Assembly (NCBI GenBank): GCA_947044405.1
Contig: CAMRHE010000054.1
Coordinates: forward strand, 6,525,501-6,589,500
Source of the DNA: Leptodactylus fallax
Taxonomy: Eukaryota > Chordata > Amphibia > Anura > Leptodactylidae
Direction of reading: 5' to 3'
Length of the DNA: 64,000 nt
Part shown: positions 7,331-43,669 of the stretch, piece by piece
Layout: the number at the start of each line of letters is the position of its first letter
Numbering within the stretch: position 1 is the stretch's first letter
Notes under the pieces: generated by a model
What the model was told of the DNA's origin: nothing
Databases searched by the model: none
Seen by the model: only the letters and a program-made list of their open reading frames with translations
Position numbers and translations under genes: made by a program

Positions 7331-8649
7331 ATGGCGAACAGAAAGAGGGGAAGAGAACTGTCGAAGGACTTGAGAACCAAAATTGTGGAAAAATATCAAC
7401 ATTTTCAAGGTTACAAGTCCATCCCTATAGATCTTGATGTTCCTTTATGTATGGTGCTGAACATAATCAAGAAGTTTACAACCCATGGCACTGTAGCTAA
7501 CCTCCCTGGACGTGCACGAAAGAGAAAAATTGATGAAAAGTTGCAATGCAGGATAGTCCGAATGGAGGATAAGCAGCCCCAATCAAGTTCCAAAGAAACT
7601 CAATCTGTCCTGCAGGCTCAGGGTGTATCAATATCAGCGCAAACTATCTGTCAACATTTGAATGAAATTAAATGCTATGGCAGGAGACCCAGGAGGACCC
7701 CATTGCTGACACAGAGACCTAAGAAAGCTAAACTGCAGTTTTCCAAAATGTATGTGAGTTAGGCCGGTTGCAGATGATCGTGCTTCAACCGGCCTGCCGT
7801 GAATTAAAAGCACGGGCTGAACACAGGGGACACGTCCCCATGTGCCGCCCGTGCACGCGCCGTACTTCCGCGGCTCCTTTCATTAAATGAATAGGACCTG
7901 TTCTAATTGGTGCAGCCCGGACTGTTGGCCCACACACGGGACTGTGAAATTCACGGTCGTGTGTACGGGCCCATAGAAAAGTATGGGTCAGTGTGCTATC
8001 CGTGAAATACACGGATAGCACACTGACCTACACAAGTGGCCTAAGCCAAAGTCCTTCTGGGAAAACATCCTGTGGACAGATGAGACCAAGAAAGAGCTTT
8101 TTTGTAAAGCACATCATTCTTCTGTTTACCGAAAACGGAATGATGTCTACAAAGAAAAGAACACAGTACCAACAGTCAAATATGGTGGAGGTTCAAAGAT
8201 GTTTTAGGGTTGTTTTGCTGCCTCTGGCACTGGGTGCCTTGACTGTGTGCAAAGCATCTTGAAATCTGAAGATTGTCAAAGGATTTTGGATCTCCATTTA
8301 GGGCCCAGTGTCAGAAAGCAGGATTTGCATCCTAGGTCATGGGTCTTCCATAAGGACAATGAACCCAAACTTACTTCAAAAAGCACCCAGAAAGGGATGG
8401 AAACAAAACGCTGGAGAGTTCTAAAATGGCCAGCAATGAGTCAAGTTCTAAATGCCGTTGAACACCCGCAGAGAGATATTAAAATTGCTGTTGGGAGAAG
8501 GCAACCTTCAAATATGAGAGACCTGGAGTAGTTAGCAAAAGAAGAGGGATCCAAAATCCCAGTTGAGAGGTGTAAGAAGCTTGTTGATGGTTATAGGAAG
8601 CGATTGATTTCTGTTATTTTTTTCCAAAGGATGTGCAACCAAATATTAA
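7331..8649 (+). pseudogene. Tc1 transposase pseudogene (element A)
   Basis: It starts MANRKRGRELSKDLR with a paired helix-turn-helix DNA-binding region (residues about 1-120), then the catalytic half with LWTDETK, a degraded DNEPKLTS in place of DNDPKHT, and VEHPQRD in place of IEHLWRD, ending GCNQILS-like before the stop. DD34E transposases cut and paste DNA at TA sites. A 286-bp MITE interrupts the coding region right before the first catalytic Asp motif. There are at least two further in-frame stops (after KMF near 8205 and after MRDLE near 8528). It is non-functional. Confidence 0.8.
7759..8044. mobile_element. 286-bp inverted-repeat element inside Tc1 A
   Basis: Its ends are TTAGGCC and GGCCTAA, with a GC-richer, partly self-complementary interior (for example ACGGATAGCACACTGACC and its partner). 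It splits the transposase reading frame between YVS and KPKSFW. No clear target duplication was found, so it is unclassified. Confidence 0.6.
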
Positions 8650-8868
8650 GTTAAGGGTGCCAGTAATTTTGTCCAGCCCACTTTAGGAGTTTTGCGTGAA
8701 ATTATATCATTTTTAGCTTTTTTTTTCCCTCTACTTTTTAGTGTAATAACAATACAATACAAAGGAGATAAACATGCGTATAACAGTAACATTCTTGGCT
8801 TTGGTTCAAAATGCACTGCAAAATCTGCAACAAAAAATGCTGCGTTTCTGCAACGTGGGGCCTCAGCC

Positions 8869-9722: not shown

Positions 9723-10169
9723 CTTTTTAGTATATCTGGAAAAATATTAAGAAAGGAGGGGTATCTGATTTATTTTCACATTTTTCTTTTCTTTTTTTTT
9801 TTCAATACATTAGCTAAAGTTACAGGAGGAAAACAGCCTACTACCAAGCACCAAAGAATTCTCCTGAGTGTTCTAGGACCCAGAAGCTTATGCCATTCGC
9901 CCAGCATCAAAAAGTCACATGACTTTCAAGTTGGGAGGAAGCTGAAAAATGGAGCAGCTCATTGAGCTGCAAGAACACACCAGTATATCTTTACAGAATT
10001 ATATGCCAATATAGTCAATGGTTGGTTACAAAGAGGTTAATAACAATTAAAGGGAGTCTATCATTCAGATTCAGGGAAATGATGATGACACAGGTGTTCT
10101 TGGAGCACAGAGGGAAAGCCCCCTGTGCTTTGTGAAGTGCTATATGATATTTAAAAAAGTATAGAGATA
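9723..10169. other. Collagen intron sequence, no gene seen
   Basis: No coding frame seen. A one-ended fragment starting TTAAAGGGAGTCTATCATTC near 10049 looks like the end of another TTAA MITE without its partner. Confidence 0.4.
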
Positions 10170-11104
<935 letters not shown>

Positions 11105-11441
11105 TACAAATATTAATACATTTATCCAATAAATACCTTATACCATAACAAAACAATAGATTTTATTCCACAATAAGTTTATGCATACAGAGCAAAATTA
11201 TTCCATAAACTAAGTAAACAAACCAGCAAAAAATTGATCTAGGCACAAATATAAAAAACATATTTTATTAAATCAGAAATATAAAAACAAAAATAAATAC
11301 CAAGAATGAGACAGATAGTACAAAAAACAAAGGTGTCAGACTCTATAGGAGACATATACTCCCTCTCCAAAAACCCCATGTAAACATACTGGAGAAGGGT
11401 CAATATAACACAAATTCATATATAAGTACAGTGGGACAAGA

Positions 11442-11490
11442 ACACTACTACTACTACTACTACTACTAATAATAATAATAATAATAATAA
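11442..11490. repeat. (ACT)n(AAT)n microsatellite
   Basis: A compound trinucleotide run inside the left arm of the inverted-repeat cassette. Confidence 0.85.
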
Positions 11491-11839
11491 ATCACCTAAC
11501 TTATGAATAAACATGTATACATTAATAATAAATAGAATTTACTAAAATATACAAATAACCAAGGTAGTGACCTTGTTGCCGCAGAAAACAACTAAGAAAA
11601 TGCAGTGCATAAAGGAGCACTCAAACTGTGATGAATGGTATTATACCAACTATCTAATTGCACATGCCCTCAAATGCAAACAATGATGCATGGATCAGCA
11701 ACAACACATATCCATAACTGCACCGCCTCTAAGTCTCCAAAGTCTGACACCACACAGCCGATGCGCATTTCAGCTGCTCTTTTGTCCTATGTGTGTGCAC
11801 TGTACCCACCATGTTGCACTCTGTCTCCTCTCTCCCTAG

Positions 11840-13096
11840 GCCAACATCCTGCAAATGATGGAGGATAACAAGAAGCTGGCACTCAGAATAGATGTGCTAT
11901 ACAATCTGAGAGCCAGGACGTGACTAACCTGAGATCTGAGCTGACAGCCACCAACAGGAGACTGGCTGAGCTGATCAGTGGAGACCCCTGTGTCATGAAG
12001 AATAACCAACACAACACACAAGGTCAAGAGTATGGCCACATAAAGTTGAGCAGATCTGGAAAGCACAAATGAAAGACAAATATACATATGGGTTGCTGCT
12101 AAGGGAAGAAGTGTCGCAGCTGCAAGATGAGGTACACGACAAATGAAGGAAATGTTTGCAAAGGACCTGGAGGAGTCATATGACAGCTGATCGGCGGAGG
12201 TACTCTCTGTGACAGAGCTTATGGTGCAGCTGTCACAGAAAGAGCAGGCGCTGGCGCAGGCAAAGGAGGAACTTCAGGTTATGAAGGCAGATTGAAGATA
12301 TTTAAAATCAGAAAAAGTAATTATATTCAACCATGGAAAGCCGGAAGGAAGAATTGCTCTACTTTATCCGAAATTATGAGCAACATAGAAAGGAAAGTGA
12401 AGATTCAGTCAAGGTTTTAGCAAAAGAAAAAGATCTTTTAGAGGGGGAAAAGTGGGAGCTGCCAAGGAAGCAACAGACCATGCCACTTCTCTTTGGTCAC
12501 AGTTGGACTTGAAGGACAATTGGATCAGAGAGGTCAAGGCTGAGATTGCAATGATAACAAAGTGTTTTGTCCAGAGAAAAGAATACTGTGTTTTTGATCA
12601 GAAGAAGAAGCTCTCCACAAGAGGGATAGCGGCCAAGCAGTCTTTAGCGACCCTCACTAAAAATTTACCCAAGGGACATTCACTGGCTATGCCAGATGAA
12701 ACCATCCTAAATGGAAACCAGGAGTGGGTAATCTGCATGCGGATCTTTCCCTAACTGCAGCCATCCATCAAAACCAGCAAACAATGTACCACAGGCAACC
12801 ACAGCATACTGCTGATCGGCAAGCTGTCAGAGTAAGCCCTTGTGATTGGCGACAACCATCTATAATCTCTGCCGCAGAGGGTGACAGATCGTCAACACCG
12901 AGTGACATCAACTCACCAATACAACAACACATTCCCTCTGTAATTCTTTAGAAGACCTGGAAGACCAGAAGAGGAAAAAGAAGAGGGAGAAGATGGGTTT
13001 TGGGTCTTTCAAGGAAAAAACAGAGGAAATCCTTAGACCCTGGTCTTTTTTGACCGTACTACACCTGACTATTAAATTGAAGAGGATATGGACTGG
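11840..13096 (+). pseudogene. KAZN: Kazrin processed pseudogene (retrocopy fragment)
   Basis: Translated in shifting frames, the segment follows vertebrate kazrin, a coiled-coil, desmosome/cytoskeleton-associated protein. The order is ILQMMEDNKKLALRID, LRSELTATNRRLAEL, LLREEVSQLQDEVH, NYEQHRKESEDSVKVLAKEK, AKEATDHATS, QSLATLTKNLPKGHSLAMP, ILNGNQEWV, TADRQAVRVSPC, EGDRSSTPSDINSP, SLEDLEDQKRKKKREKMGFG and finally RKSLDPGLF. These match the family in correct order without introns, so it derives from a spliced transcript. Frameshifts and stops occur throughout. The 5' edge at 11840 is preceded by a polypyrimidine tract and CTAG, like an unspliced acceptor. No poly(A) is seen; the copy ends inside the coding region and is framed by inverted arms. 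Identification is from recognition of the family, not a search. Confidence 0.85.
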
Positions 13097-13703
13097 TGAC
13101 TATGTCTGGATCCAATCCGAACCAGTCAAGTGAGCCTTTTTATTCTATTTAGAGCTTTTTGTTGGTTTTTTTAATTTTTTTTTTTACATTTTCATTGGCA
13201 TTGCTGTGATTCTGAAATAGCTGTACACAAGACCCCCAAACAAAGACGTAGCTGAAACGGGTGTGTGGTGTTAGACCTTGAAGATCTCGGTGCGGTGACC
13301 AGTCATGGGTATGTGTTGCTGCTGATCCATGCAGCATTGTTTTCATTTGAGGGCATGTGCAATTAGATAGTTGATATCATACCATTCATCACAGTTTGAG
13401 TACTCCTTTATACACTGCATTTTATTAGTTGTTTTCAGAAGCAACAAGGTCATTGTCTAGTGTGAATTGTATTTATTATTAATATATACATATTTATTTA
13501 TTAGTTAGGGGATTATATAATTAATTTATTATTGGTAGTGTTCTTGTCCCCATGTACTTACCTTAGATATGAATTTGTGTTATATTGACCCCTTTTTGAG
13601 AGGGGTATGTCTCCTATAGAGTCTGACAGCTTTGTTTTTTGTACTATCTGTCTCATTCTTGTTATTTATTTTTGTTTTTATATTTTTGATTTAATAAAAT
13701 ATG

Positions 13704-14334
13704 TGTAACATCCTGGTCCGTTCGGACCTCTGCACCATCCTCCGGCCACATGCTGTGGCGCAAGAGGCATGTTCGTTTGTTATCCTCTGCTCCATGGCCT
13801 CCTGTTGTTTTGGCACTTCTGAGAGTTCATTGCAGTGTACCAGTTCAGCCAGTGCTATGGTTTACTAAAGAGTTAACGTTAGTTGCTCTTTGATTGACAT
13901 CCTTCCTTGCCAATCAAGCCTGGGGCAGATTCTGGATATCCTTTATATGGTTTTCCAACCCTCTCTTGGTTGCTTGCTATTAGTCTCTCTGAGTGTGCTA
14001 AGCGTTATACTGTTTCCTCTTATCTATATTCTGACCTTGGCTTTTCCCTTTGACTATTCTCCTGGTTCTAATTTGGTACTCCACTGCTCGATTGGTTCTG
14101 ACCATTGGTTCTCTTTATTACCCGTTCCTGTTTGTTTGTCTTGTCTGCGTTTTGTGTATTCACTTGCATTATAGGAAGGGACTGTCGTCCAGTTGTCCGC
14201 CTAGGTTAGTTGAGGCAAGTAGGTAGGGACTGGAGGTGGGTCAAGCATTAGGACTCACTGTCTCTTTCGTTTCCCTTCCTCCCAGGTTTCAGCAGCAGCT
14301 ACAGGGAAATTGCTCAACTGGCAATTCCCTAACA
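13704..14334. mobile_element. Solo LTR (631 bp)
   Basis: The segment starts TGTAACATCC and ends TCCCTAACA, giving TG...CA ends, and is flanked by a 5-bp duplication ATATG (13699-13703 and 14335-14339). The pyrimidine-rich body resembles LTRs common in frogs. Removing it restores the alignment of the right cassette arm, which is independent proof of insertion. The family is not determined and no internal retroelement genes are present. Confidence 0.75.
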
Positions 14335-14390
14335 ATATGGTTTTTAGATTTGTGCTTAGCTCAATATTTGTCAGTTTATTTATATTTTGT

Positions 14391-15224
14391 CTTGATGCTT
14401 GCACGCCCATTTTTAGGGCAGGACATAATAAGGTAGATGTGTTTTATGTAAATCACATCCATAAACTGTGCTATGTGGTTGTTCATAAACTAAGTATATA
14501 CCATACATTACATTACATGTATAAAAGTGCCTAGTCAGAAGCACAATGCAAATTCCAGAGGAAGGTGGTTTTTCATTACTTTGTTTTGGGTGTGCACACA
14601 TTTTTTTATTTGTTGTTGGATTACTGTATGTATCATTTGATGGATTTAGTACTGTGGTCATTTTTGGCTTTCTGTTCCCATGACAGGCTTAGGGTTGGCC
14701 TATTCAAAAGTTTGCTATGGGACCTAGCCTGTTCTAGTTAATCCCATGGATAGTCTTACAAATAAAAATATCTAATGTAACTAATAAGTACTTAAAACAA
14801 CTGAATTATGCCTGTATGCCTGTATGCCTGCAAAATCAACCTAGAGATATGTCTACACTTAACTGACTTCTAGTTTGGTTAACCAATGTAAATTGTCATG
14901 AATCCAATGCAACACAATATGACAACATGATAACAGAAGCCTTGAAAGGTGGCAAATCACAAAAGACCTTGTTGTTTTTTAGAAAAGTTGCATAACTGGT
15001 AATACTGGTAATGTGGACATGTCCAGCCAAGAGAAAAGGTAAGGGAGGACATATCTGTATTACAGTTGTGTGACACTATTTATTGTATTATGTAAGACCT
15101 TGAAGATCACTAACACATCTGGGGCCTTACATGTTTTCCTGTTCACTAATCAAATGTCAAACATATATAGAAAAAAAACAGGCTGAAGATAAAGAGAAAG
15201 TTTTGCTGTAATGTTTGTTAATAC
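14391..15224. other. Collagen intron 2 sequence, no gene seen
   Basis: AT-rich, with a short direct repeat of CTGTATGC near 14812-14830. No exon, transposon ends or long open frame could be supported. Confidence 0.45.
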
Positions 15225-25656: not shown

Positions 25657-25931
25657 TATATATAGACATCCAGCACAAGGAGGGAAAAAAAACGGCCAAA
25701 CAGCCCCTAACTTATAGGGCCTTTGCTGCAGGCTAAAGTATATAACCAGTACCAATATAAAATTGTCAGCTAACCTAACATTCTAGCTAACTATAAAGAA
25801 AGAAGTGTAGTGACTCACAAGCGTTTAGTGCCTGCTTATCTGTTCATATACCTATTCAAACAGTAGCTTACTAACATCTAAACACCCAGCGAACAAGTCA
25901 CTATAGACAACTAGCTCAAAATATCTAATAA

Positions 25932-26002
25932 AGCACAGCTAACGCATTTCAACTGCCCATAGGTGGGTTTTCACTATGGCAGATCATCAGAGGTACTGTG
26001 CT
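25932..26002 (-). ncRNA. Candidate hammerhead ribozyme, left Penelope arm
   Basis: On the minus strand the order is AGCACAG (helix I 5' side), CTGATGA core, CTGCC-ATAG paired with CTAT-GGGCAG (helix II, one bulged G), GAAA, a minimal helix III around TGCG, then GTTA and CTGTGCT, the exact complement of the helix I strand. Cleavage would fall after GTTA. Hammerheads in the pseudo-LTRs of Penelope-like elements are established knowledge. The core is intact in this copy and is in the same sense as the reverse transcriptase. A T before GAAA and the weak helix III are imperfections. Confidence 0.6.
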
Positions 26003-26700
26003 AAAGGAACCAGGAAATTTGAACTAACTACAACCCTCATTTCTGCTTTGTTTTGTCACAGAGAGTCAATATAATAAAGATCTCCATTCCCCCATTGGCA
26101 CTAATACATGGCCGCACGGGGGAGCGGAAATCCCTGTCTTAAATAGGCTACGATACAGCATCAGCTGTGGCCAATCGCAAACCAGACCGCAACATCGCTG
26201 AAAACGGCAGGACCTTCGCGCATGCGCACTTGACAGACCAATCACAGAGCGGGAGAGAAGAAAACTCCCCCGTAAACCCCACCCACCGGTGAGAAGTAAA
26301 CAAACCCGACGCTCACATACTCCTAACAGTATGAGACGAGTATATAGGAACCAAAAGCACGTAAATATGAACAAAAAAAAGGACTATCCCTAGTTTTATA
26401 ACGGAGAATGATATATATAGGAGGCTAATAACCAAAGGGAAAAAAGCAACAGACCATAGTAACAACCCCAAAAGGTATAAATAGCCGATAATGCATATAT
26501 AGATAGAACCATCCAATCTATAATAAAAAATATATTGCCCATGGACATACCACAGCAAAAAAGTATGCTGCCCCCTCATAATTTAACAAAGAAGGATGAA
26601 TCTCAACAGAAAAGGACACTACCAGATAAAACGAAATAAAACAGGCATACGAAATCCCATCATTTAGTCCCCATGGCTTAATTATTTTTAGATCAAACGT

Positions 26701-29500
26701 CTAACAAGTCTCTCTCTGAAGCAAATTTTGATCAAAATCACCCCCTCTTTGAGACGGATGCACCAATTCTATTCCCCGAAATGTAATCTGGGAAGCATCT
26801 CCTTGGTGCTGTTCCCACACATGTTGGGCGATCGTAGTGTCCTCCTGGCGATTAATATTGAGGATATGCTCCCTCACACTTCTACGAAATTGTCTGATGG
26901 TTTTGCCAACGTATTGAACACCACAAGAACAGGTGATAAGGTAAATTACCCCTTCAGTTTTACAGTTAATAAAGCTGTTATTTTTATACCATCTCGCAGT
27001 GGCAGTACTTTTGAATGACTTGCTCGATTGAATAAATCTACATGCACGGCATGACCCACACGGATATGTCCCAACGATTTTAGCCGCTTGTCGACCCAAC
27101 CAGGTTTCAGAATTTGTTGAGGTCAAATGGCTATGAACCAATTTATCCCTGAGATTGGCCCCTCTGCTATAAGTCACTGACGGTCTGTTATTCAACAGGG
27201 GACCAATGTCTGGGTCAGATAATAAGATCTCCCATGAGTTTTGTAGAGGATAGAGCGTGTTGATGAGCACTTCTCAAAACACCGTCCGGGTAACCTCTAT
27301 GATGGATGTGCATACTCATAGTCAGGGAGGTACCGTTCCTACGTAAACGAAGGAACTGCCCTTTCGGTATACCTTTTCGTAGGGCAAACGGGTGCCAGCT
27401 ATCCCATTTAAGTAAGGAGTTGGTCGCAGTCTCCTTTCTAAAAATAGTAGTGGTTAATTTCCCTGAGCTAGATTTCTTGATAGTGAGATCCAGAAATATG
27501 ATAGAATTCTCATGGATTTCAGAAATAAAAAACAGGCCCAAAGTGTTCATATTCAGGATCCGCACAAATTCATCAAAGGATTCTCTTGAGCCACCCCAGA
27601 GGAGGAACACATCATCTATAAATCCGACCAACATCAGGACCGATGACGACCAGACCTCCATACAGTCCCAAAAAACCACTTCCTTCTCCCACCAGCCCAG
27701 GAACAGATTGGCATAAGTTGGGGCACATGGACTCTCCATAGCCACGCCCCTGAGCTGGTGGAAGAAGTGGAGGTCAAACAAAAACGTATTGTGCGCTAAA
27801 ACAAAGCTCAATAAATCCAATACCAAGGTGTTATGTGGAGACAAGTGGTTACCTCTGGTTTTTAAGAAGTCCCCCACAGCCCCTTAGCATGGGGTATGGA
27901 GCTGTAGAGGGCCTCGACGTCCAATGATGCCAAAAATACCCCTGGTGACACCGACAAGTCTTCCAATCTCTTAAGAATATCAGTGGTATTCTTCACAAAA
28001 GAAGGCAAGGTTGTCACAAATGGACGGAGTATTTAATCTACATATAACGAGATGTTTTGCGTAATAATATTAATACCTGCCACAATAGGCCTTCCTTTTA
28101 GAGGTGTCAAACCCTTATGGATTTTAGGTAGGGCATAAAAGGTTGGACGAGTAGCATATTGCGGTAGTAAAAAATTGAACTCACTTTCGCTAATTAAATG
28201 GTCAGACATCAAAATCCCCCTGAATTCAGCAAGATACCCATTTGTGGGGTCCTCAGGTAAGATCTCATAACACCTCGAATCATCAAGAATGGACCGACAC
28301 ATTTTGATATATTTGGTGCGATCTAAAATCACCAAATTTCCACCCTTATCAGAAGGTTTTATAATTATAGAGTTGTCATTCTCTAATCCCCTTAACAATT
28401 CTCTTTCCTCCTGACATAAATTGGAATGACACATTGATCTAGTGGCGTCAATACGTGATAATCGTTCAGTCACAACTTTACAAAAGATATCAATAGCTGT
28501 GTCATCTGATATTGGGGGAAATTTCTTAGAGGGTAAATGCAAATTTGTGAAGGGGCCTTCACCTAAATCCCGTTGTCCCTCCTCCCAGAGGCCTCCCAAT
28601 AGTCTAAGTGATGGAAGATCCTCCTCTATATCCAATTGGTCACAATTTCTCCTATCATTTATACTGAAGAATTTCCTCCACTTTAGTTTCTGACAGAAGA
28701 GGTTCAGATCTTTAACCGTTGTAAATAAATCAAACCTGGGAGTACGGACAAAAGAAAGGCCCTTTCTTAAGATGTTTTTCTCATCCATACTCAAGACCCT
28801 TTGTGACAAATTTAATATCTGCATATCATCCCTTTTGGTAGTCTGGCAGACCATCATTTCGGATTTCTGAGCATGTACTCCGATATTGGAGGAGCCTGGG
28901 ATAAAAAACCACCCCTTTCTCCTACAGTTCTGCCTCTGCTCCTACCTTGTCTGGGACTACTAGAATTAAGGGTATTACTTTGCTGCTGTCTATTATATCC
29001 TCTACCCCCAAAAAAAGATTTTCCTTTCCGGTTTCTAGATCTTGAACATTCAACGTCAAACAACACATTCAGAAGAAGAAGGCTCAGTATCCACCTCTCT
29101 TTTCCCCGACCCTTTAGCTGAATAATCAAAGATCCTCCCTTCTTTGAAATCAACAATGTCCCTTCTAAATCGGTAATGCTTTCTTTCTTTATTTCATAAA
29201 GACAATGAAACGTTCCACTGTCTGCTGCAGTGCAGTCTCCCTCAGTTCAAAGTCAGTATTACTAGCAAACTTCTTTACTGCCTCAATTTGTTCTTTAAGT
29301 TCAAGGGAAGTTTTTTCAAGTAAAGATTTCTCCTCATCCAATAAAATTCCCATTAATCTGAGGGAAGACGCAATAGATTCCTTTTCCCACTTATCTAGAA
29401 GGGTCTGAGATCTTAAACGTTGGGCCGGGAGTAAGTTAATGCATAGTCCCCTCGGGACGATGTTATTTTTTAAATAATTTTCCAGAGTCTGGACCTCCCA
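26701..29500 (-). pseudogene. Penelope-like RT / GIY-YIG endonuclease pseudogene
   Basis: Read from high to low coordinates. It starts with an N-terminal region (GLCINLLPAQRLRSQTLL near 29400-29450) and a basic stretch, then RT domains with IIIKPSDKGGNLVILDR, YALPKIHKG and GRPIVAGIN (28033-28857), motif A SLDVEALYSSIPH (about 27885-27925), GVAMESPCAPTYANLFLG, and the catalytic FIDDVFLLWGG (about 27590-27625). Next come the zinc-binding CGSCRAC linker and the GIY-YIG nuclease motif GVIYLITCSCGVQYVGKT (about 26890-26960). Penelope-like elements copy RNA by target-primed reverse transcription using this nuclease. At least four frame breaks (near 28855, 28033, 27880 and 27250) inactivate it. Confidence 0.88.
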
Positions 29501-30230
29501 AAAGGATCTCAGATGGTCTTAATATATATGATCTAAAAACAATTAAGCCATGGGGACTAAATGATGGGATTTCGTATGCCTGTTTTATTTAGTTTTATCT
29601 GGTAGTGTCCTCTTCTGTTGAGATTCATCCTCCTTTGTTAAATTATGAGGGGGCAGCATACTTTTTTGCTGTGGTATGTCCATGGGCAATATATATTTTT
29701 TTATTATAGATTGGATGGTTCTATCTATATATGCATTATCGGCTATTTATACCTTTTGGGGTTGTTACTATGGTCTGTTGCTTTTTCCCTTTGGTTATTA
29801 GCCTCCTATATATATCATTCTCCATTATAAAACTAGGGATGGTCCTTTTTTTGTTCATATTTACGTGCTTTTGGTTCCTATATACTCGTCTCATACTGTT
29901 AGGAGTATGTGAGCGTCGGGTTTGTTTACTTCTCGCCGGTGGGTGATGTTTACGGGGGAGTTTTCTTCTCTCCTGCTCTGCGATTGGACTGTCACGTGCG
30001 CATGCGCGAAGGTCCTGCCGTTTTCAGCGATGTTGCGGTCTGGTTTGCGATTGGCCACAGCTGATGCAAGAGGGCGGTATCATAGCCTATTTAAGACAGG
30101 GATTTCCGCTCCCCCGTGCGGCCATGTATTAGTGCCGATGGGGGAACGGGGATCTTTATTATATTGACTCTCTGTGACAAAACAAAGCAGAAATGAGGGT
30201 TGTAGTTAGTTCAAATTCCCTGGTTCCTTT

Positions 30231-30301
30231 AGCACAGTACCTTTGATGATCTGCCATAGTGAAAACCCACCTATGGGCAGTTGAAATGCGTTAGCTGTGC
30301 T
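30231..30301 (+). ncRNA. Hammerhead ribozyme-like motif, right Penelope arm (probably inactive)
   Basis: This is the inverted counterpart of the motif at 25932-26002. The helix I strands AGCACAG/CTGTGCT, the helix II CTGCC-ATAG/CTAT-GGGCAG and GAAATGCGTTA are identical, but the core reads TTGATGA in place of CTGATGA. That change removes a conserved base and should weaken or abolish cleavage. Confidence 0.5.
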
Positions 30302-30406
30302 TTATTAGATATTTTGAGCTAGTTGTCTATAGTGACTTGTTCACTGGGCGTTTAGATGTTAGTAAGCTACTGTCTGAATAGGTATATGAACAGTTAAGCA
30401 GGCACT

Positions 30407-30728: not shown

Positions 30729-33700
30729 TTATTCAGTTAAATATAATCTCTTCATCAGTCTCTGGTGTCTTTCAGCACTCAACGCCTTTGTGAAAATATC
30801 TGCTGTCATATCTTCAGTTGGGCAGTATTCTAAATTCAGAATTTCTTGTTCCTGATGATCCCGTAAGAAATGAAACTTCACATCAATGTGTTTAGTTCTG
30901 GGATTAACTCTTTCCATCTGAGCAAGAACAAGACATCCTTGATTGTCTTCATGTAACGTTGTTGGTCCTAACTGTTGTTGTCCTAAGTCTGTTAGTAGTT
31001 GTCTTAACCAAAGAACTTCTTGACTCGCATGAGCGGCGGGTACATATTCTGCTTCTGTAGACGATAGTGTTACTATAGATTGTTTTTTACTAGTCCAACT
31101 AATTGGTCCGCCCGAGAGTAAGAAAAGATAGCCACTGGTAGATTTTCTATCAATTGGATCTCCAGCCCAGTCTGCATCAACATATCCAGTTAAAACGCAT
31201 TCATCACTTGCAGGTAGTTTCAGTTTAACGTTGCTAGTTCCTTTCAGATAACGTATTACTCTCTTTACAGCTTTCCAATCCATTTCATTGGGGTTTGACA
31301 CTTTTCTGCTCAAAATTCCTACTGCTGCTGCAATGTCTGGCCTTGTAACAGTCGCTAAATATAGTAATTTTCCCATTGCTTTTCTGTATAGCTCATTATC
31401 TGGTAACATATTTTGTTCACTTTTAATTTCCTTCAGATAATTAGTTTCCATTGGAGACTTTACTGGTTTCGCATCTTTCAGTCCAAATGTTTCTATTATA
31501 TCTTTGATCATGTGATTTTGGTTAAGTTGGAAACTCCCATCTTCTTCTCTTTCTATCTGTATCCCTAGGTAATGCTTCACATTTCCCAGATCTTTGATCT
31601 CAAAGTGTTGATCCAAAATTTTCCGTATTTCAGCTTCATCCCTTTCTCTTTCAAAACAAACTAAAATATCATCAACATATATCAGTACATAGATCCATCT
31701 GTCATCTAGTTTCTTTGTGTATAGACAGGGATCCGCTTTGCTTCTTAGAAAATGTTCATTTATGAGCACTTCAGTGATTTTATCATTCCACGCTTTAGCG
31801 GCTTGTTTTAAACCGTATATACTTTTCTGTAGCTTACAAACCATGTTTGGTTTCTCTTTATCTTTGAATCCTGGAGGTTGTTCCATGTAAATTTCTTCTG
31901 TTAAATCTCCATTCAGAAATTCTGTCTTTACATCCAGATGTTTCAATTCCATTCCTTTAGTAGCTGCAACCGCAAGCAAAGTTCTGATTGTAGTATGCTT
32001 GACAACCGGAGCAAATGTTTCATCATAGTCTTCTCCGTATTTTTGAGAATAACCTTTAGCTACGAGTCTTGCTCGGTATTGTTCAGCGGTGCCATCTGTT
32101 TGGTATTTAACTTTAAAAACCCATTTACATCCTATAGCTTTTCTCCCTTTTGGTAATTCTGTCAGTGTCCATGTCTTTGAATCATGCATGGATTTCATTT
32201 CTGTTTCTGTAGCCTTTATCCACTTATTGGCCTCTTCTTCTGAAAGTTGAGATATATCCTCCCAAGATTTAGGTTCATATACTTTATTTGTACTTGCCTT
32301 GTATGAAAGACGTACAGGTGGTTTTCCTTTGTTTTCTCTCATTGAACGTCTTGGTTCTGTGTCTTTTGTTTCACTCTCTTTAGGTATACACACTCTTGTA
32401 GCTTTAGATTTTATACAACATTCACATCTTACAATAATTGAGCAATCAGATATCAACAGATCTTTTGTCAAATTTTTGTTCTGTAATGCCATGATACTCT
32501 CAGGATGTCTGTGTCCTAAGCGTCTATGCCACATGTGAATACAATTCTTGTGATCATGCGTACCTAACTTCATCTGTTCCTTTAATGTGTCTAGATGATA
32601 TAATTGTTCACCTGCTTTTACATTTATTATTATCTTGTCTCCTGCTAGGATTGTACATTCATCATCTTTGAATTTTACAGTAAGTCCTTTAGCTGTTAGA
32701 CGTTTTACAGATAATAGTCCTCCATCTAGTCCTGGAACATATAACACATCCTTTACTAGTATCTTTGAATTATGCCCAAATTTATCAGAATAGATTAGCA
32801 TTCCTTGTCCAGTACCTTCCGCGGTTATTTTGCTCCCATCTGCAAGGTAAATAGCTTCCTTCTTATTTAGATCAAGTTCAGTAAAGAAGCTCTTATTACT
32901 TGTCATGTGACTTGTTGCTCCTGAGTCAATATACCAACTGATTGATAACCTTTTATCGGTTACTTTAAATGTACCATTCCAGTGATCTGCATGTGGGTTA
33001 GATATTGTGCTTTTCACCTTCTGTTTACTTTCTTTATGGTATAACTTCTGTTCTGCTTTCCATATAGTACAGTCTTTCTTTAAATGTCCCTTTTTCTTGC
33101 ATCTGAAACATTCTCTTGTTTCTGTTTTATAGGTCCTCTTATCTGTAATTTTAAGAGCATTTACACTGTCCTTTTCTGTGGAATCATTTGTTTGTTCTTT
33201 CCTTCTCTGGTATTCATCTATGAGTCGTGTTTTTACAAACTCTAGTGTAATGTCTGCTTCAGGTCTTGTTTCTAGAGCATTTATCAAAGCAGTGTATGAA
33301 TCCGGCAAGCTAAACAATACTATTGCTGCTACATGACTTTCTTTAATATCTTCACCAACTGATCTCAGCTGTGTTATCACTTCCATCATGGAGTTTATGT
33401 GCTCCTGCATGTCTTCCTGTGCACTTAATCTCATCTTGTAAAGTTTCCTTAGCAGAAACAATTTGTGATTTAAGCTGGATCTTTCATGTAACTTTCTCAA
33501 TGCTTCCCACATTCCCTTTGCTGTATTCTCATTCCTTATGTGGATTAACTGATCATCTTCCACTAATAAGCTGATAGTAGCTCTTGCTTGTCTGTTTTTC
33601 TTATCCCATGTCTCATTATTATCATTGGGTCTATCTGTAGTGATTACATCCCATAAATCATCTTTAGACAATAACATCTCCACTTTGAACTTCCATAACT

Positions 33701-33758
33701 GATAGTTCTCATTGTTCAGCTTAGCTACTGTAAGTCTGAGTTCTGAATTGCTGGTCAT
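30729..33758 (-). CDS. Copia Gag-Pol polyprotein without integrase core (1009 aa)
   Basis: The start is taken at ATG 33756-33758 (MTSNSELRL); upstream codons in frame overlap the primer-binding site. Domains in order: copia-type Gag with LNNENYQLWKFKVEMLL (residues about 15-35), zinc knuckle CFRCKKKGHLKKDC (about 217-230), protease DSGATSHM (about 278), integrase zinc-finger part HRRLGH...CECC (about 410-447). Then the sequence passes directly at about residue 460-466 into the linker ESETKDTEPRRS and reverse transcriptase CKWVFKVK...LDVKTEFLNG...IYVDDILV (about 694-697), and RNase H YVDADWAGDP...STEAEY. The roughly 250-300-residue DDE core between them is missing, yet the frame is open throughout. 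Protease, RT and RNase H motifs look intact. It could supply Gag and RT but not integrate unaided. Confidence 0.92.
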   Translation of the reverse strand: MTSNSELRLTVAKLNNENYQLWKFKVEMLLSKDDLWDVITTDRPNDNNETWDKKNRQARATISLLVEDDQLIHIRNENTAKGMWEALRKLHERSSLNHKLFLLRKLYKMRLSAQEDMQEHINSMMEVITQLRSVGEDIKESHVAAIVLFSLPDSYTALINALETRPEADITLEFVKTRLIDEYQRRKEQTNDSTEKDSVNALKITDKRTYKTETRECFRCKKKGHLKKDCTIWKAEQKLYHKESKQKVKSTISNPHADHWNGTFKVTDKRLSISWYIDSGATSHMTSNKSFFTELDLNKKEAIYLADGSKITAEGTGQGMLIYSDKFGHNSKILVKDVLYVPGLDGGLLSVKRLTAKGLTVKFKDDECTILAGDKIIINVKAGEQLYHLDTLKEQMKLGTHDHKNCIHMWHRRLGHRHPESIMALQNKNLTKDLLISDCSIIVRCECCIKSKATRVCIPKESETKDTEPRRSMRENKGKPPVRLSYKASTNKVYEPKSWEDISQLSEEEANKWIKATETEMKSMHDSKTWTLTELPKGRKAIGCKWVFKVKYQTDGTAEQYRARLVAKGYSQKYGEDYDETFAPVVKHTTIRTLLAVAATKGMELKHLDVKTEFLNGDLTEEIYMEQPPGFKDKEKPNMVCKLQKSIYGLKQAAKAWNDKITEVLINEHFLRSKADPCLYTKKLDDRWIYVLIYVDDILVCFERERDEAEIRKILDQHFEIKDLGNVKHYLGIQIEREEDGSFQLNQNHMIKDIIETFGLKDAKPVKSPMETNYLKEIKSEQNMLPDNELYRKAMGKLLYLATVTRPDIAAAVGILSRKVSNPNEMDWKAVKRVIRYLKGTSNVKLKLPASDECVLTGYVDADWAGDPIDRKSTSGYLFLLSGGPISWTSKKQSIVTLSSTEAEYVPAAHASQEVLWLRQLLTDLGQQQLGPTTLHEDNQGCLVLAQMERVNPRTKHIDVKFHFLRDHQEQEILNLEYCPTEDMTADIFTKALSAERHQRLMKRLYLTE

Positions 33759-33834
33759 TTTAACTTGTCTTACTTGTTTGGAGAGAATTGTTCTGAAGAA
33801 TCCTTTTGCATTCACTGGGTCTTTTTGTCTTCTA

Positions 33835-33850
33835 TGCCTGGGCACATAAC
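33835..33850 (-). promoter_or_regulatory. Candidate primer-binding site (initiator-tRNA anticodon half)
   Basis: Directly inside the 5' LTR the minus strand reads GGTTATGTGCCCAG. This is one base different from the complement of the initiator Met tRNA anticodon arm (GGTTATGGGCCCAG). Copia elements are known to prime from an internal half of this tRNA. The mismatch is visible; the role is inferred. Confidence 0.6.
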
Positions 33851-33851
33851 C

Positions 33852-34154
33852 TGTTGCATAGTTGTGTCACAGAAGAAGCTTGAGAGTAGATTATATGGGA
33901 TAATCAGCATTTACTTCTTAGAACATGAGGTAAACAGCATCAAAACGTTAACACAGCAAAACTTGAAAGTAAAAAAGGACCTTTTACAATAGAGAGATAA
34001 AAAACAAGGTACAGCAAGTCTCACATAGCATACCATTACACTCTATTCAGCATATAACACTAATAACATCGCCATCTACTGTCAGATAGATGTAAACTTC
34101 TGCACACAAATAAGTCTATCTGTTGCATATATATGTATATAGTATATACCAACA
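33852..34154 (-). repeat. Copia 5' LTR (303 bp)
   Basis: It is in 5' position because the element reads on the minus strand. It begins, in that sense, TGTTGGTATATAC and ends CTATGCAACA. The TATATAC run near its start may be a promoter element. It differs from the other LTR by one GA dinucleotide. Confidence 0.93.
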
Positions 34155-38566: not shown

Positions 38567-41500
38567 TCAAGTCATAAATGCATCAAGGGCTGTACGAAAA
38601 GATGGGGTTGTGTATAAGCTTAGCGGTGAGTTACACCAGGGACCCCAAACCTTTTCAAATTTAGTGGGCCGTCCTCTACCCTTGTATACCAGCTGGTTAT
38701 ATGGTAAAACTAAATTCACCAACTTTCTCCACTGTGAGAGAGAGGGTGGGCGAGAAGCCATCCATCTCAGAGCTATGGCCTTTCTAGCTAAGAATAAAGA
38801 TTCTCGTATGCATAATACGAATATGATGTATCCATAGCTCCTTGTTCAGGATACCAAACAGGCAAACTTCTGGGGTGAGTGGAACAGGGACACCTAGGAC
38901 CTCTGATAGTATATCTACCACCTCTGTCCAGAAACTTTTAATAACAGGGCAGTCCCATATCATATGCCAAAAGTCTGAATACTCTGCAGGACAACGTAGG
39001 CAGCCCGGATGTTGTAGTCGTTCCATCTTATGTAACCGTGCAGGGCTCAGATAACTTTGGTGTATGATATATACTTGAATCAACCTATTGTTGACTGATG
39101 GGGATAAAAATTGTGCTGATTCCTGTAGTTCTAAATAGGACTTATCGGTAAGGGCAGGAATCAGAGTGCACCATTTCAACAAAGAGGGAGCAGCCAGATG
39201 GGATGTTTTAGCCTGTATGAGGTGGACATATAGGCTTGAGATGAGACCCCGAGGACCCTGGGACCATAGTATACCTATTAGAGGATAAGTAGAAATGAGC
39301 ACATCAGAGGGGGGAAACTGTGTAGTCATGGCATGTCTAAATTGCAAAAACCTGAAAAACTGTGTGTGGGGAATGTTAAACAGTACACATAGAGAGTCAA
39401 AAGAACGAAATACACCCTGTTCGTATAAATCACCAAGAGAGACAACTCCAAACCGCTCCCAGCACCTCACGTCTAGGAGAGCCAAAAGCTCCGTCAGCCC
39501 AGGATTATCCCAGAGCGGAGTCTCAGTAGGAATAGCAGAGTAGGATGCTACCCGCTTGGCCTGCTGCCAAACCTGACTTGCCAGTTTGTGGAGAGGCAGT
39601 AACTTACCTTTATATAAACGTGGACTTTCCAATACTGACCATAAGGTGGGTATAGCTAAATAATGTGCTAAGTGGGCCTCCGGGCCAGGTAGGGGCCAGT
39701 TAACAGCCAAGACTTCAAATAGCGGAGTTGCCCCGCAATGTAGTATAAAAAGATGTCCGGCAGGGCCATCCTGCCCATATCTTTGGGACGTTGCAAGGTG
39801 AATAGTCGCAGCTTGGACCTGGAACTCCCCCAGATAAAGGGAATAAATAGGGAGTCTAACTGCTTAAAGAAACTGCAGGGTACTAGCATGGCCACATGCT
39901 CCAGTATATATAAACACTTAGGGAGTACCACCATCTTGATAAGGTTTATCCGTCCAGCTACAGACAAAGGCAGAGCCCCCCAAACTTTAAATTTGGTTCT
40001 GAAATGGCCTAAAAGTGGGTACACATTTAGGTTCAGGGAGTTGTTGTGATCATTAGTGATATGAATACCCAGGTATTTGCAGGCATTCACCACTCTCAGG
40101 TCACACATCAACTCTCTGGTGTCTGCCAGTAGGCGCGGAGAGATAGGCATATATGAGGACTTAGACCAATTAATTTGTAGGCCCGAATAGGTACCAAATC
40201 TATCAATGACATCCATAGCCCTGGACAAAGTGTGAGCGGGGTCAGACATAAATAAGAGTCTGCGTATAGGGCCGTCCTTTCCTCTTGGGCGTCAATGGTC
40301 AACCCTTTGTATATCGGGTCTGTCCTAATAATAATAGCGAGAGGCTCCAACACTATCACAAACAATAATGGGGATAAGGGACATCCCTGACGGGTTCCCC
40401 TATGTAGGGGGAACGTAGGAGACAAAGCACTATTAATTGAGAGTGCCGCCATGGGGGATTGGTAGAGGAGGGTAATCCATGTAATAAAGGAGTCACCAAA
40501 CCCAAAGCAACGGAGAACCTGTAGGAGGAAGGGCCATACCACTGAGTCAAATGCCTTAGTGGCATCTAAAGAGGCAATTGCCCAATCCTCATGGAGAGCA
40601 GCCCCAATTTGGGATACCACATGGACCCTCCTAAGATTGTCTGAAGTGGACTTTCCGGGCATAAAGCCTGTTTAGTCGGGATGAATCAAGTCAAAATAAT
40701 AGTGTTCAGTCTATTCACTAGGATTTTTGCAAGCAGTTTATAGTCAATGTTAAGAAGAGAGATGGGTCTGTATGACCCACACTCCAGCTGGTCCTTATCT
40801 GGTTTGAGGAGAAGGATAATTGTAGCATCATAAAAGGACTCCGGCAGTGCATGGGTCGAGTAGGCATCCTGATAGCATTTCAACAATACAGGAAGTAACA
40901 GGTACTGATATTGCACATAGACCTCCACTGGTATACCATCAGGGCCAGGGGATTTACCCCTGGCCATATCAGCCGGGGCATCAGATAGTTCCTCCATAGT
41001 GAGAGAGGAGTCTAGGAAAGTCCGTTGTTCTTGCATCAAAGTTGGGAAGGAGACATCGGTTATGTACTGAATAAGTTCTTGACTAGGGGCTTGGAGCTGG
41101 GATTGGTAAAGACTGGAATAGTAATGGTGGAACTTATTCTGGATAGCAACACTGTCAGTCAAAACCACCCCATCAGCTGAGTTAATTTTCAGGATACCTG
41201 GAGAGGCTGTGTTATAGTGAATCAGATGGGCCAGGAGACTACTAGACTGGTTGCCTAGTTCATAAAACCTCTGTTTGCTAAAGAATTGTGACCTGCGAGC
41301 TTTGTCATACAGAACATGCAAATATTGTCTGCCCATTTGGAGCCATGCATTTTTAGAGTCCTTACTGCGGTCAGTAATGTAGGCTGCTTCCAGGGAAGCA
41401 CATTTATTAGCTAGCTCAGATTCTAGGGAGGAGGACTCTCGCTTGATATATGAGATGGAAGATTTGATACATCCTCTCACGTACGCCTTAGTAGTTTCCC

Positions 41501-42341
41501 ATAGGATGATAGTTGTAGTACCTGGAGAGTTGATATCTAGAAAGGTGTGTAACTGGTCAGGAATACGGTCATTGGTAGCTATAAGTTTGAGCCAAAAGGG
41601 ATGAATACGCCAGTTGTGTGGATGGCCCGGGGAGGCACTCTCTCCGATTTCCACCAACAAGGGTGAGTGGTCGGATGTGGCCCTAGGCAAATATGAAATA
41701 GCAATTAGCTGGGAGCTAGCTCTAACATTACCCAAGGAGTGATCAATTCGAGACAAAGTGTGATACGTAGCAGAGTGGCAGGAATATACCCGGGCCTGGG
41801 GGTGTTTAAGACGCCACAGGTCATACCATCCCAATTCTTGTATAAGGTGGGCCAAAGGAGTAGGTGCAGCTACGGGGGAGGGGGACACATCAGTCATAAA
41901 TTTATCTAAGGAGGCATCCAACACCTTATTAAAATCACCCACACATAGCACCGTGGAAGCTGGGAATCTAGACACAAACTGGGCAGCTTCATGTAGTACA
42001 GAGAGGTCAGATGCAGGTGGCAAATAGAGACCACCTGCATCTATCCAGGCCTGAACAAACACATAAAGCCCCTCCGGGTCTCTAACGGTGAGACCAGACT
42101 CCCATCTAAGTCTGCGGTGGACTAAAAGAGACACACCTCTAGAGTAGGAGGTGTGAGTGGAGTGTAAGGACCATTGGATCCAGGGCTTTTGCAAAAGCTG
42201 GGTCGTGTCAGGAGTAAGGTGAGTTTCCTGCAAGTACACTATATCTGAGACATGTCTTCTTAATTGGGAGAAGATAACTAAGCGTTTTTTAGTGCTACCC
42301 ATTCCCCTCACATTCCATGAGAACAGTTTAAGGGTCGCCAT
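38567..42341 (-). pseudogene. LINE ORF2 pseudogene (endonuclease-RT)
   Basis: It begins MATLKLFSWNVRGMGSTKKR with an apurinic-type endonuclease (LQETHL, GDFNKVLD, SDHSPLLVEI) over the first 230 residues or so, then the RT (GPDGIPVEVY, YRPISLLNIDYKLLAKIL, GKSTSDN, SLDATKAFDSV, RQGCPLSPLLFV). ORF2 proteins nick the target and copy the LINE RNA there. Breaks: a one-base loss plus stop near 40680, a small deletion that removes the second Asp of the YADD site and shifts frame near 40250, further shifts near 39690 and 38790. The C-terminal part (HTRIFILARKAIALRWMA-like) is recognisable as L1-clade. It is inactive. Confidence 0.9.
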
Positions 42342-42802
42342 GGTAAGTAAGTTGTAATGGAATCACCACTGGTGGGACACCATCCTCCACCCATAGCTGA
42401 AAGGGGAGCATGAAGAAAAATATTGATCCACAGCAACATTGAAACCAAGAACTAATACCCATAAGGGGTAAATTAACCATGAGGGAAGGAGTCTAGACTC
42501 ACTTCTGCAAACTATGTGGCACTTAGTAAAAGGGGGGAAGCAGCGCACCCTAGGTGGTACAGTAATGGGCCACTGTCTTCAACTTAGATAAAGAAAGGTA
42601 AAAGCAAATCCAGGGCAGGAACAATCTCTGAGTGGTGAAACACAACATATAGTTTCAGTAAGACTCTGGAGCCGGCAGCCCCGCACCCCAAATAGATGAA
42701 ATTAACAGGCAGGTATAGACAATAGAACAAAGTAAATCACAGTACAGTCCATATAAAGATATTAGGCCGCAAGAGCCCCTTACCCAACAGCGCCGCAGAC
42801 AG

Positions 42803-43669
42803 CTATCGTCTGGGAGACCGAGGCAATAAGTTTAACCAGTCCTCCACCTCTCGCGGAGAAGCAAAGAAGGTTGTCTTGTCATTGTAGATCACTCGAAGAT
42901 GAGCAGGATATGCCATAGAGTACTGGATGTAGCGTTCCCGTAGGCGCCGCTTCACAGCAACAAAGGTAGAATGCGTCTTCTGTAGTGCTGCAGAGAAGTC
43001 AAGAAAAATGGAAGCTTGGGCATTGTCGAACTTTATCTCCCGAGGTTGCCGCGCCCCTCTCAATGCTGCATCCCTGTCCTTGCTGCTCAGGAGACGGTCC
43101 AGGAAAGGCCGAGGAGGTGCTCCCGGAGGAGGTGGCCTGGCCGGGACTCAGTGAGCCCTTTCCACTGCAAAAATAGGAGAGAAGGTCACATCCGGTAGGG
43201 TATCTTTCAGCCATTTCTCTATAAATTCACATGGAGCAGCTCCCTCCACTCGCTCCGACAGGCCCAGGATTCGTAGATTATTATGGCAGAGCCTATTCTC
43301 CAGGTCGTCCGCCCTCTGGGTCCACAGATCGGTTGCTCTTTCCAATGTGGCAAGCTTCTCTGGCACTGGAGCAGCGCTGTCCTCCAGTAGGGATATGCGA
43401 TCCTCCGTTTCTTTCACTCTGTTTCAAAGAGTTTGAAAATCTTGGCGGAGGAGCCCAATGTTTATCTTTACCTTCTCAATTTTACACGTGAGGGAGGAGG
43501 TGCTACATTGGATAGCCTCCAGTAACTGCTCCGTAACCTACCACAGGGTAGGCTCAGGTTCCTTAGTTGAGGACGTCGACAGCGGTGGCCCTGGTGGGCT
43601 TCTTTGCGGCTGGTCCCTGGCAAAACCCCGGAGGCGCTCAGAAGTCGATCCCTTCTGTTGTCGACTCAT
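42803..43669 (-). pseudogene. LINE ORF1 pseudogene (L1 ORF1p-like)
   Basis: The start at ATG 43667-43669 reads MSRQQKGSTSERLRGF. A coiled-coil-like region (KETEDRISLLEDSAA...LATLERATDLW) leads into NNLRILGLSERVEG, the RNA-binding signature of L1 ORF1 proteins, and FIEKWLKDTLPD, ending EDWLNLLPRSPRR. ORF1p is the RNA chaperone that coats LINE RNA. One frame runs through the whole length. It is broken only by three stop codons (about 43538, 43425 and 43148), with no frameshift seen. Confidence 0.85.

Follow-up and report, generated by a model that had tools for sequence, protein, structure and literature searches.

How did a spliced piece of a host message come to lie between the inverted arms of a mobile element in the genome of Leptodactylus fallax? 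The window studied here is a stretch of 64,000 nucleotides (C54:6525501-6589500), and the genome searched for its relatives comprises 2.5 Gb in 2215 contigs. Copying of host genes by Penelope-like elements (PLEs) was previously described with introns retained, suggesting an antisense or unspliced template. The cassette described in this study carries a copy of a mostly spliced sense kazrin transcript between PLE ends, which makes the question of the PLE template testable. It appears that an element of PLE type copied the message of a host gene to another site, and PLEs thereby join the possible makers of retrocopies in a large animal genome.

The anatomy of the cassette, observed directly, is as follows:
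11217-14483: the whole cassette, comprising the left arm, then kazrin, then the right arm
11204-11216: left target-site duplication, CATAAACTAAGTA
11217-11789, minus strand: left PLE arm, inverted and without tail, its inner end abutting a kazrin intron
11790-11839, plus strand: unspliced 50-nt 3' end of the kazrin intron that precedes the first captured exon, ending in CTAG
11840-13099, plus strand: nine joined kazrin exons, with an ATG at 11855 and the native stop TGA at 13097-13099, a pseudogene
13100-13231, plus strand: first part of the kazrin 3'UTR, truncated inside the parental 3'UTR, without poly(A)
13232-13703, plus strand: right PLE arm, part 1, beginning at a hammerhead-like motif seen by eye
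13704-14334: nested solo-LTR-like insertion of 631 bp, TG..CA
14340-14483, plus strand: right PLE arm, part 2, of which about 14381-14483 is the tail
14484-14496: right target-site duplication, CATAAACTAAGTA

The arms are real inverted repeats, recovered by repeat finding and by BLAST (E 2e-121), and match nothing else in the window at E 0.001, a looser search giving only short weak matches. An earlier note, made from the letters of this DNA, had placed kazrin exactly between two reverse-complement arms. Indeed, the inner ends of both arms meet kazrin directly and no PLE interior remains; the extents of the arms are corrected to 11217-11789 and, with the 631-bp insert, 13232-14483.

A perfect 13-bp direct repeat, CATAAACTAAGTA, encloses the arms and kazrin together, and 10 of its 13 bases are A or T. 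Of 2861 random pairs of equally sized window regions, 8 contained a direct repeat of 13 bp or longer; a 13-bp match anchored at the element boundaries occurred in 7 of 400,000 random draws, a total in which the skipped draws with ends less than 1.5 kb apart are still counted. Since the whole unit lies inside this perfect duplication, it was inserted as one piece, and integration of the cassette as a unit is supported. The insert in the right arm has its own 5-bp duplication, ATATG (13699-13703 and 14335-14339); it has no further match within the window, and its features are solo-LTR-like and suggest an arrival later than that of the cassette.

The spliced source is evident from the genome search with 11840-13096, which gave ten matches (all ten candidates scored): the full-length copy of the window and nine exons. 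The nine exons are separate matches on the minus strand of C301, spread over about 131 kb (1670871-1801925). The copy joins them, in the same order, where the parent gene has eight introns; the parental splice sites were placed by hand at GT..AG, which all eight introns allow. When the joined parent was aligned with the window copy, the homology spanned 11790-13231 in order, so that the spliced, order-preserving fragment reported earlier at 11840-13096 is borne out and extended at both ends. The 50-nt stretch of retained intron differs from the parent at 3 of 50 sites. Beyond the native stop, 132 nt of 3'UTR are present, with about 50 parental nucleotides deleted. The string TGG..GTGAG at about 13094-13134 was weighed as a donor site following some foreign exon and rejected, being the kazrin stop and 3'UTR. 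The coding part contains 11 indels relative to the parent and differs at 109 of 1242 sites (8.8%). First and third codon positions differ alike (42 of 415 and 43 of 413), and the copy is in this pseudogene-like, although second positions differ less often (24 of 414); as judged from these changes, the kazrin copy is a pseudogene. The count for the 3'UTR (38 of 165 sites) extends beyond the junction and was set aside.

The gene was named from a 437-residue parent translation. eLife 83793 calls kazrin a vertebrate protein and places two guide sequences in mouse kazrin. Both match one exon of the parent, each with 2 mismatches in 20, compared with 7 and 6 mismatches for the best matches in the window from 13201 on. 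Moreover, the motif KRKKKK lies at 289 of 335, where it is expected from the published 281 of 327 (eLife 83793). The name kazrin is thus supported indirectly, by the agreement of the guide matches and of the KRKKKK position. Pfam and PDB searches with kazrin returned nothing usable, and a probe for the long-isoform part had no match in the 80 kb downstream of the parent.

Searches of the genome with the right arm (a query that includes the kazrin 3'UTR) and with the left arm gave 13 and 19 matches, respectively, and show that the cassette arms belong to a low-copy family. Besides C54 and C301, these searches reached 13 contigs, among which C59 was matched solely by the T-rich portion of the query that comes from the kazrin 3'UTR. 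Kazrin was found on none of the 13, nor was a second kazrin cassette found among the ten kazrin candidates, of which one is spliced; the search skipped very common words, so that absence is not proof. The earlier note had held that another locus with the same arm-kazrin junctions would prove mobilisation as a unit; no such locus turned up in the kazrin and arm searches, and it is integration as a unit, rather than later mobilisation or spread, that is supported.

Two members of the family link the arms to PLEs. Locus L030 (C1381) has two inverted arms (about 1605-1775 and 8300-8855); a coding remnant, PCGRCMACPNVERTTHFF, with VVYCATCPC in another frame, lies roughly 300 bp inward of the left one. 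At L035 (C70), a remnant ending in KWIWILRTLTPLGLNESLNY stands upstream of the arm. We take both remnants to be PLE endonuclease motifs, and tblastn with the PLE endonuclease-like piece of the window matched them with E values of 0.001-0.002. The coding remnants of the family outside the cassette are short and decayed. None of the PLE pieces tried matched a reverse transcriptase or a GIY-YIG domain in Pfam, NCBIfam or PDB, and single-sequence structure models of two pieces were too poor to use (mean pLDDT 29.7 and 41.2), so the RT and endonuclease assignments are motif readings. The best candidate for a target duplication at L030 is an 11-base T-rich match, which is not convincing. The assignment of the cassette arms to PLEs is supported, in part by motif reading. 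Within the cassette, no significant match to PLE coding sequence was found (best E 0.24), and on this evidence the cassette is a PLE-framed insertion, not an autonomous PLE. Together with the tail and the enclosing duplication, the PLE-like remnants at L030 and L035 support the earlier proposal that a Penelope-type element captured a host transcript. An arm block, TGTCTCC..GTCTGACAC..TTTTTTGTACTATCTGTC..AATAAAATAT, was also noticed to be common to the otherwise different elements L054, L056, L058 and L062.

The two arms end differently, as the comparison with other family copies shows. The right arm of the cassette, C166 and C70 share an end point to within a base or two, and C386 and the right arm of C1381 run into the tail stretch before other sequence intervenes. 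The left arm of the cassette, the left arm of C1381 and C34 lack the tail and terminate about 100 nt before that point. The comparison set aside C215, C25, C30, C59, C74, C87, C227 and C533 as internal, too short, or related elements. Penelope elements have pLTRs, of which one is often inverted; an inverted arrangement is seen in the cassette arms and in at least eight pairs of a second family, and the cassette also has the optional tail at one end and the short target-site duplication. At their inner ends, the two arms break off at nearly the same PLE position (by eye, no more than about 10 nt apart) and carry a GAC..GAAACG-like stretch that resembles a hammerhead by eye; neither Rfam nor a strict regular-expression scan returned a hammerhead ribozyme. 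Elsewhere in the window, at about 59107 on the minus strand, CTGACGAAG..GAAACGCGCG resembles a hammerhead core; at Rfam gathering scores there was nothing in the window.

The second PLE family offers a comparison case, since one member lies in the window outside the cassette:
25826-30406, minus strand: decayed PLE of the second family, with RT-like and GIY-YIG-like motifs in its ORF pieces
Its RT-like strings (for example FIDDVFLLWGG) and GIY-YIG-like motifs are putative motif readings. Its inverted arms (25826-26690 and 29534-30406) are 96% alike, and no convincing target duplication was found for it. The genome search with its arm gave at least 54 matches (40 of 65 candidates scored) and that with its ORF at least 83 (40 of 1721 candidates scored). 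At least eight inverted arm pairs within 15 kb were recovered, including that of the window, all of them outward-pointing. Among the matches listed, seven of the eight pairs have PLE coding sequence between the arms; the eighth, on C226, has about 126 bp between its arms and no listed ORF match. No host gene is known from any of the eight, and the kazrin cassette is therefore the exception. Judged from match coordinates only, C112 (C112:5403608-5407122) consists of two PLE halves with coding sequence arranged head to head as a near palindrome. On C152, an antisense PLE ORF fragment (L063 1-120) is bordered by the left arm on one side and by the sense ORF on the other. Since the inner extents vary from copy to copy, two cDNAs, one per cut end, fit these elements better than fixed repeats do.

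We consider it very probable that the cassette is a non-autonomous Penelope-like insertion made by two-ended priming, in which one cDNA jumped from PLE RNA to a kazrin transcript. In this model, PLE protein would have cleaved the two strands of a target rich in A and T, and each broken end would have primed a cDNA on PLE terminal RNA, the left one starting at the no-tail site and the right one at the tail site. Synthesis on the right would have proceeded through the arm as far as the hammerhead-like motif, jumped onto a sense kazrin transcript inside its 3'UTR, and traversed the nine joined exons before ending 50 nt into the unspliced intron that precedes them. The left-hand cDNA would consist of the arm alone and would have been joined to the right-hand one, and repair of the staggered cuts would have produced the 13-bp duplication. 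Because both arms end there, the 5' end of the PLE RNA template may lie at the hammerhead-like motif. The kazrin template was a sense transcript from which eight introns had been removed, as an antisense one would retain them; the intron preceding the first captured exon either stayed in or contained the start of transcription. Two-ended priming, the template switch, the order of events and where the RNA ends came from are what we infer from one locus. The head-to-head halves of C112 and the antisense piece of C152 would follow if separate cDNAs, variable in length, had been made from the two ends.

Alternatively, the chimera could have formed first, as RNA: a PLE end near kazrin would have been spliced or read through, and the product inserted by a PLE protein. 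In one variant, a PLE in a kazrin intron could have supplied the promoter, which would explain the 50 nt of retained intron. The 5' junction does lie in an intron just before an exon, as read-through from an intronic element predicts, and an RNA chimera predating reverse transcription would look identical. The 3' junction, however, lies within the 3'UTR and coincides with neither a splice site nor an evident poly(A) site. Moreover, no PLE arm was seen in the parent gene at either junction, where the flanks continue as other sequence, although such an element could be polymorphic or lost. Overall, a chimeric RNA formed beforehand seems unlikely compared with a jump during cDNA synthesis.

Another explanation is that a LINE-made kazrin retrocopy happened to insert between the inverted arms of a PLE already in place, the interior of which was later lost. 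LINEs generally make retrocopies, and LINE-like ORFs are present in the window, by eye. LINE-made processed pseudogenes are spliced, 5'-incomplete and decayed copies of host cDNA, and the kazrin copy resembles them in all three respects. Unlike them, it has neither a poly(A) tail nor a duplication flanking the cDNA, and it is framed by the ends of another element, which it abuts on both sides with the PLE interior absent. No run of six or more A was found within 61 nt past the kazrin 3' end, and the longest string shared near the two kazrin junctions is the 7-nt GTGTGTG, which is not a duplication around kazrin alone. The earlier note had reported that poly(A) and short duplications were both missing and had named kazrin bounded by its own duplications as the contrary observation: its statement holds for kazrin itself, around which no such duplications were found, but not for the whole cassette, which lies in the 13-bp duplication CATAAACTAAGTA.

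The ages of the parts also speak against a later landing. The two arms differ from each other at 77 of 502 sites (15.3%), the closest pair among the copies compared, and from the other copies by 17-32%; a two-sequence alignment that includes their kazrin ends gives 106 of 553 (19.2%). The figures of 15.3% and 17-32% come from one seven-sequence alignment, all pairs but the last being compared, and they are rough since the arms are indel-rich. The ratio of arm divergence to the divergence between kazrin copy and parent is about 2:1, as is expected for parts of the same age if two arms decayed separately while the parent changed slowly. The arms and the kazrin copy therefore look equally old, a reading that depends on the alignment of indel-rich arms, and a LINE retrocopy landing by chance is highly improbable. 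Pack-type DNA transposons have long inverted arms, a target duplication and a foreign interior, as the cassette does, and one of these could have captured a kazrin processed pseudogene by transduplication; this is extremely improbable given that arms of the family lie elsewhere near PLE endonuclease-like remnants (by motif reading), that the arm ends are asymmetric with a tail on one side only, that the inner extents of the second family differ between copies, and that several copies of the cassette family are one-ended within the stretch fetched.

Non-autonomous insertion by PLE enzymes has a close counterpart in the bdelloid rotifer Adineta vaga. As described in PMC3846280, a host NRPS gene is framed there by Penelope pLTRs, two direct and one inverted, within an 8-bp duplication, an empty allele was shown, and the gene retains all introns; an antisense template suits this retention, an unspliced sense template being left open. 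Both loci have a host gene between PLE terminal repeats of which one or more are inverted, no PLE interior sequence, and a short duplication (8 bp there, 13 bp here), an arrangement that PMC3846280 explains by PLE enzymes acting in trans. In contrast to the NRPS gene, the kazrin cassette has eight introns removed and one intron end kept, and it has two inverted arms only. The Poseidon element PAc of Anolis (PMC11167929) begins reverse transcription at two adjacent internal sites, from which the 'tail' signature arises; its protein cuts both strands of the target and extends each. The cassette shares with PAc the tail and no-tail ends and the AT-rich target. PAc is unlike it in being tandem, with a tested hammerhead and a published tail of 30-40 bp, whereas the cassette has inverted arms, a putative hammerhead and a tail of about 103 nt. 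The term pLTR is also used in PMC9674220, on moth retrocopies. Among titles and abstract openings in one open-access library, no vertebrate host gene framed by a PLE was found, and priority is not claimed.

The kazrin cassette and the variable two-sided copies on C112 and C152 point to initiation at both target ends. As a tentative generalisation, which we would not yet bet on, PLEs may use two-ended priming, with inverted arms representing independent cDNAs, and spliced host messages may be captured in this way in vertebrates and missed by scans that rely on poly(A).

The surroundings of the cassette are rich in other elements. A Tc1-like transposon copy (10168-11106) lies about 110 bp from the cassette, and further copies are found at about 7.3-8.5, 24.4-25.3, 52.0-53.1, 55.3-55.8, 57.6-58.7 and 61.9-63.0 kb; we take them to be Tc1-like from their ORF sequences. 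LINE-like ORFs with endonuclease and RT by eye occupy 38784-43423 on the minus strand. The second-family PLE at 25826-30406 abuts a copia-like element: a single open frame of 1045 aa on the minus strand (30729-33866), which we take to resemble Ty1/copia gag-pol, seems too short in the stretch from protease to RT, as though some of the integrase region had been lost in frame.
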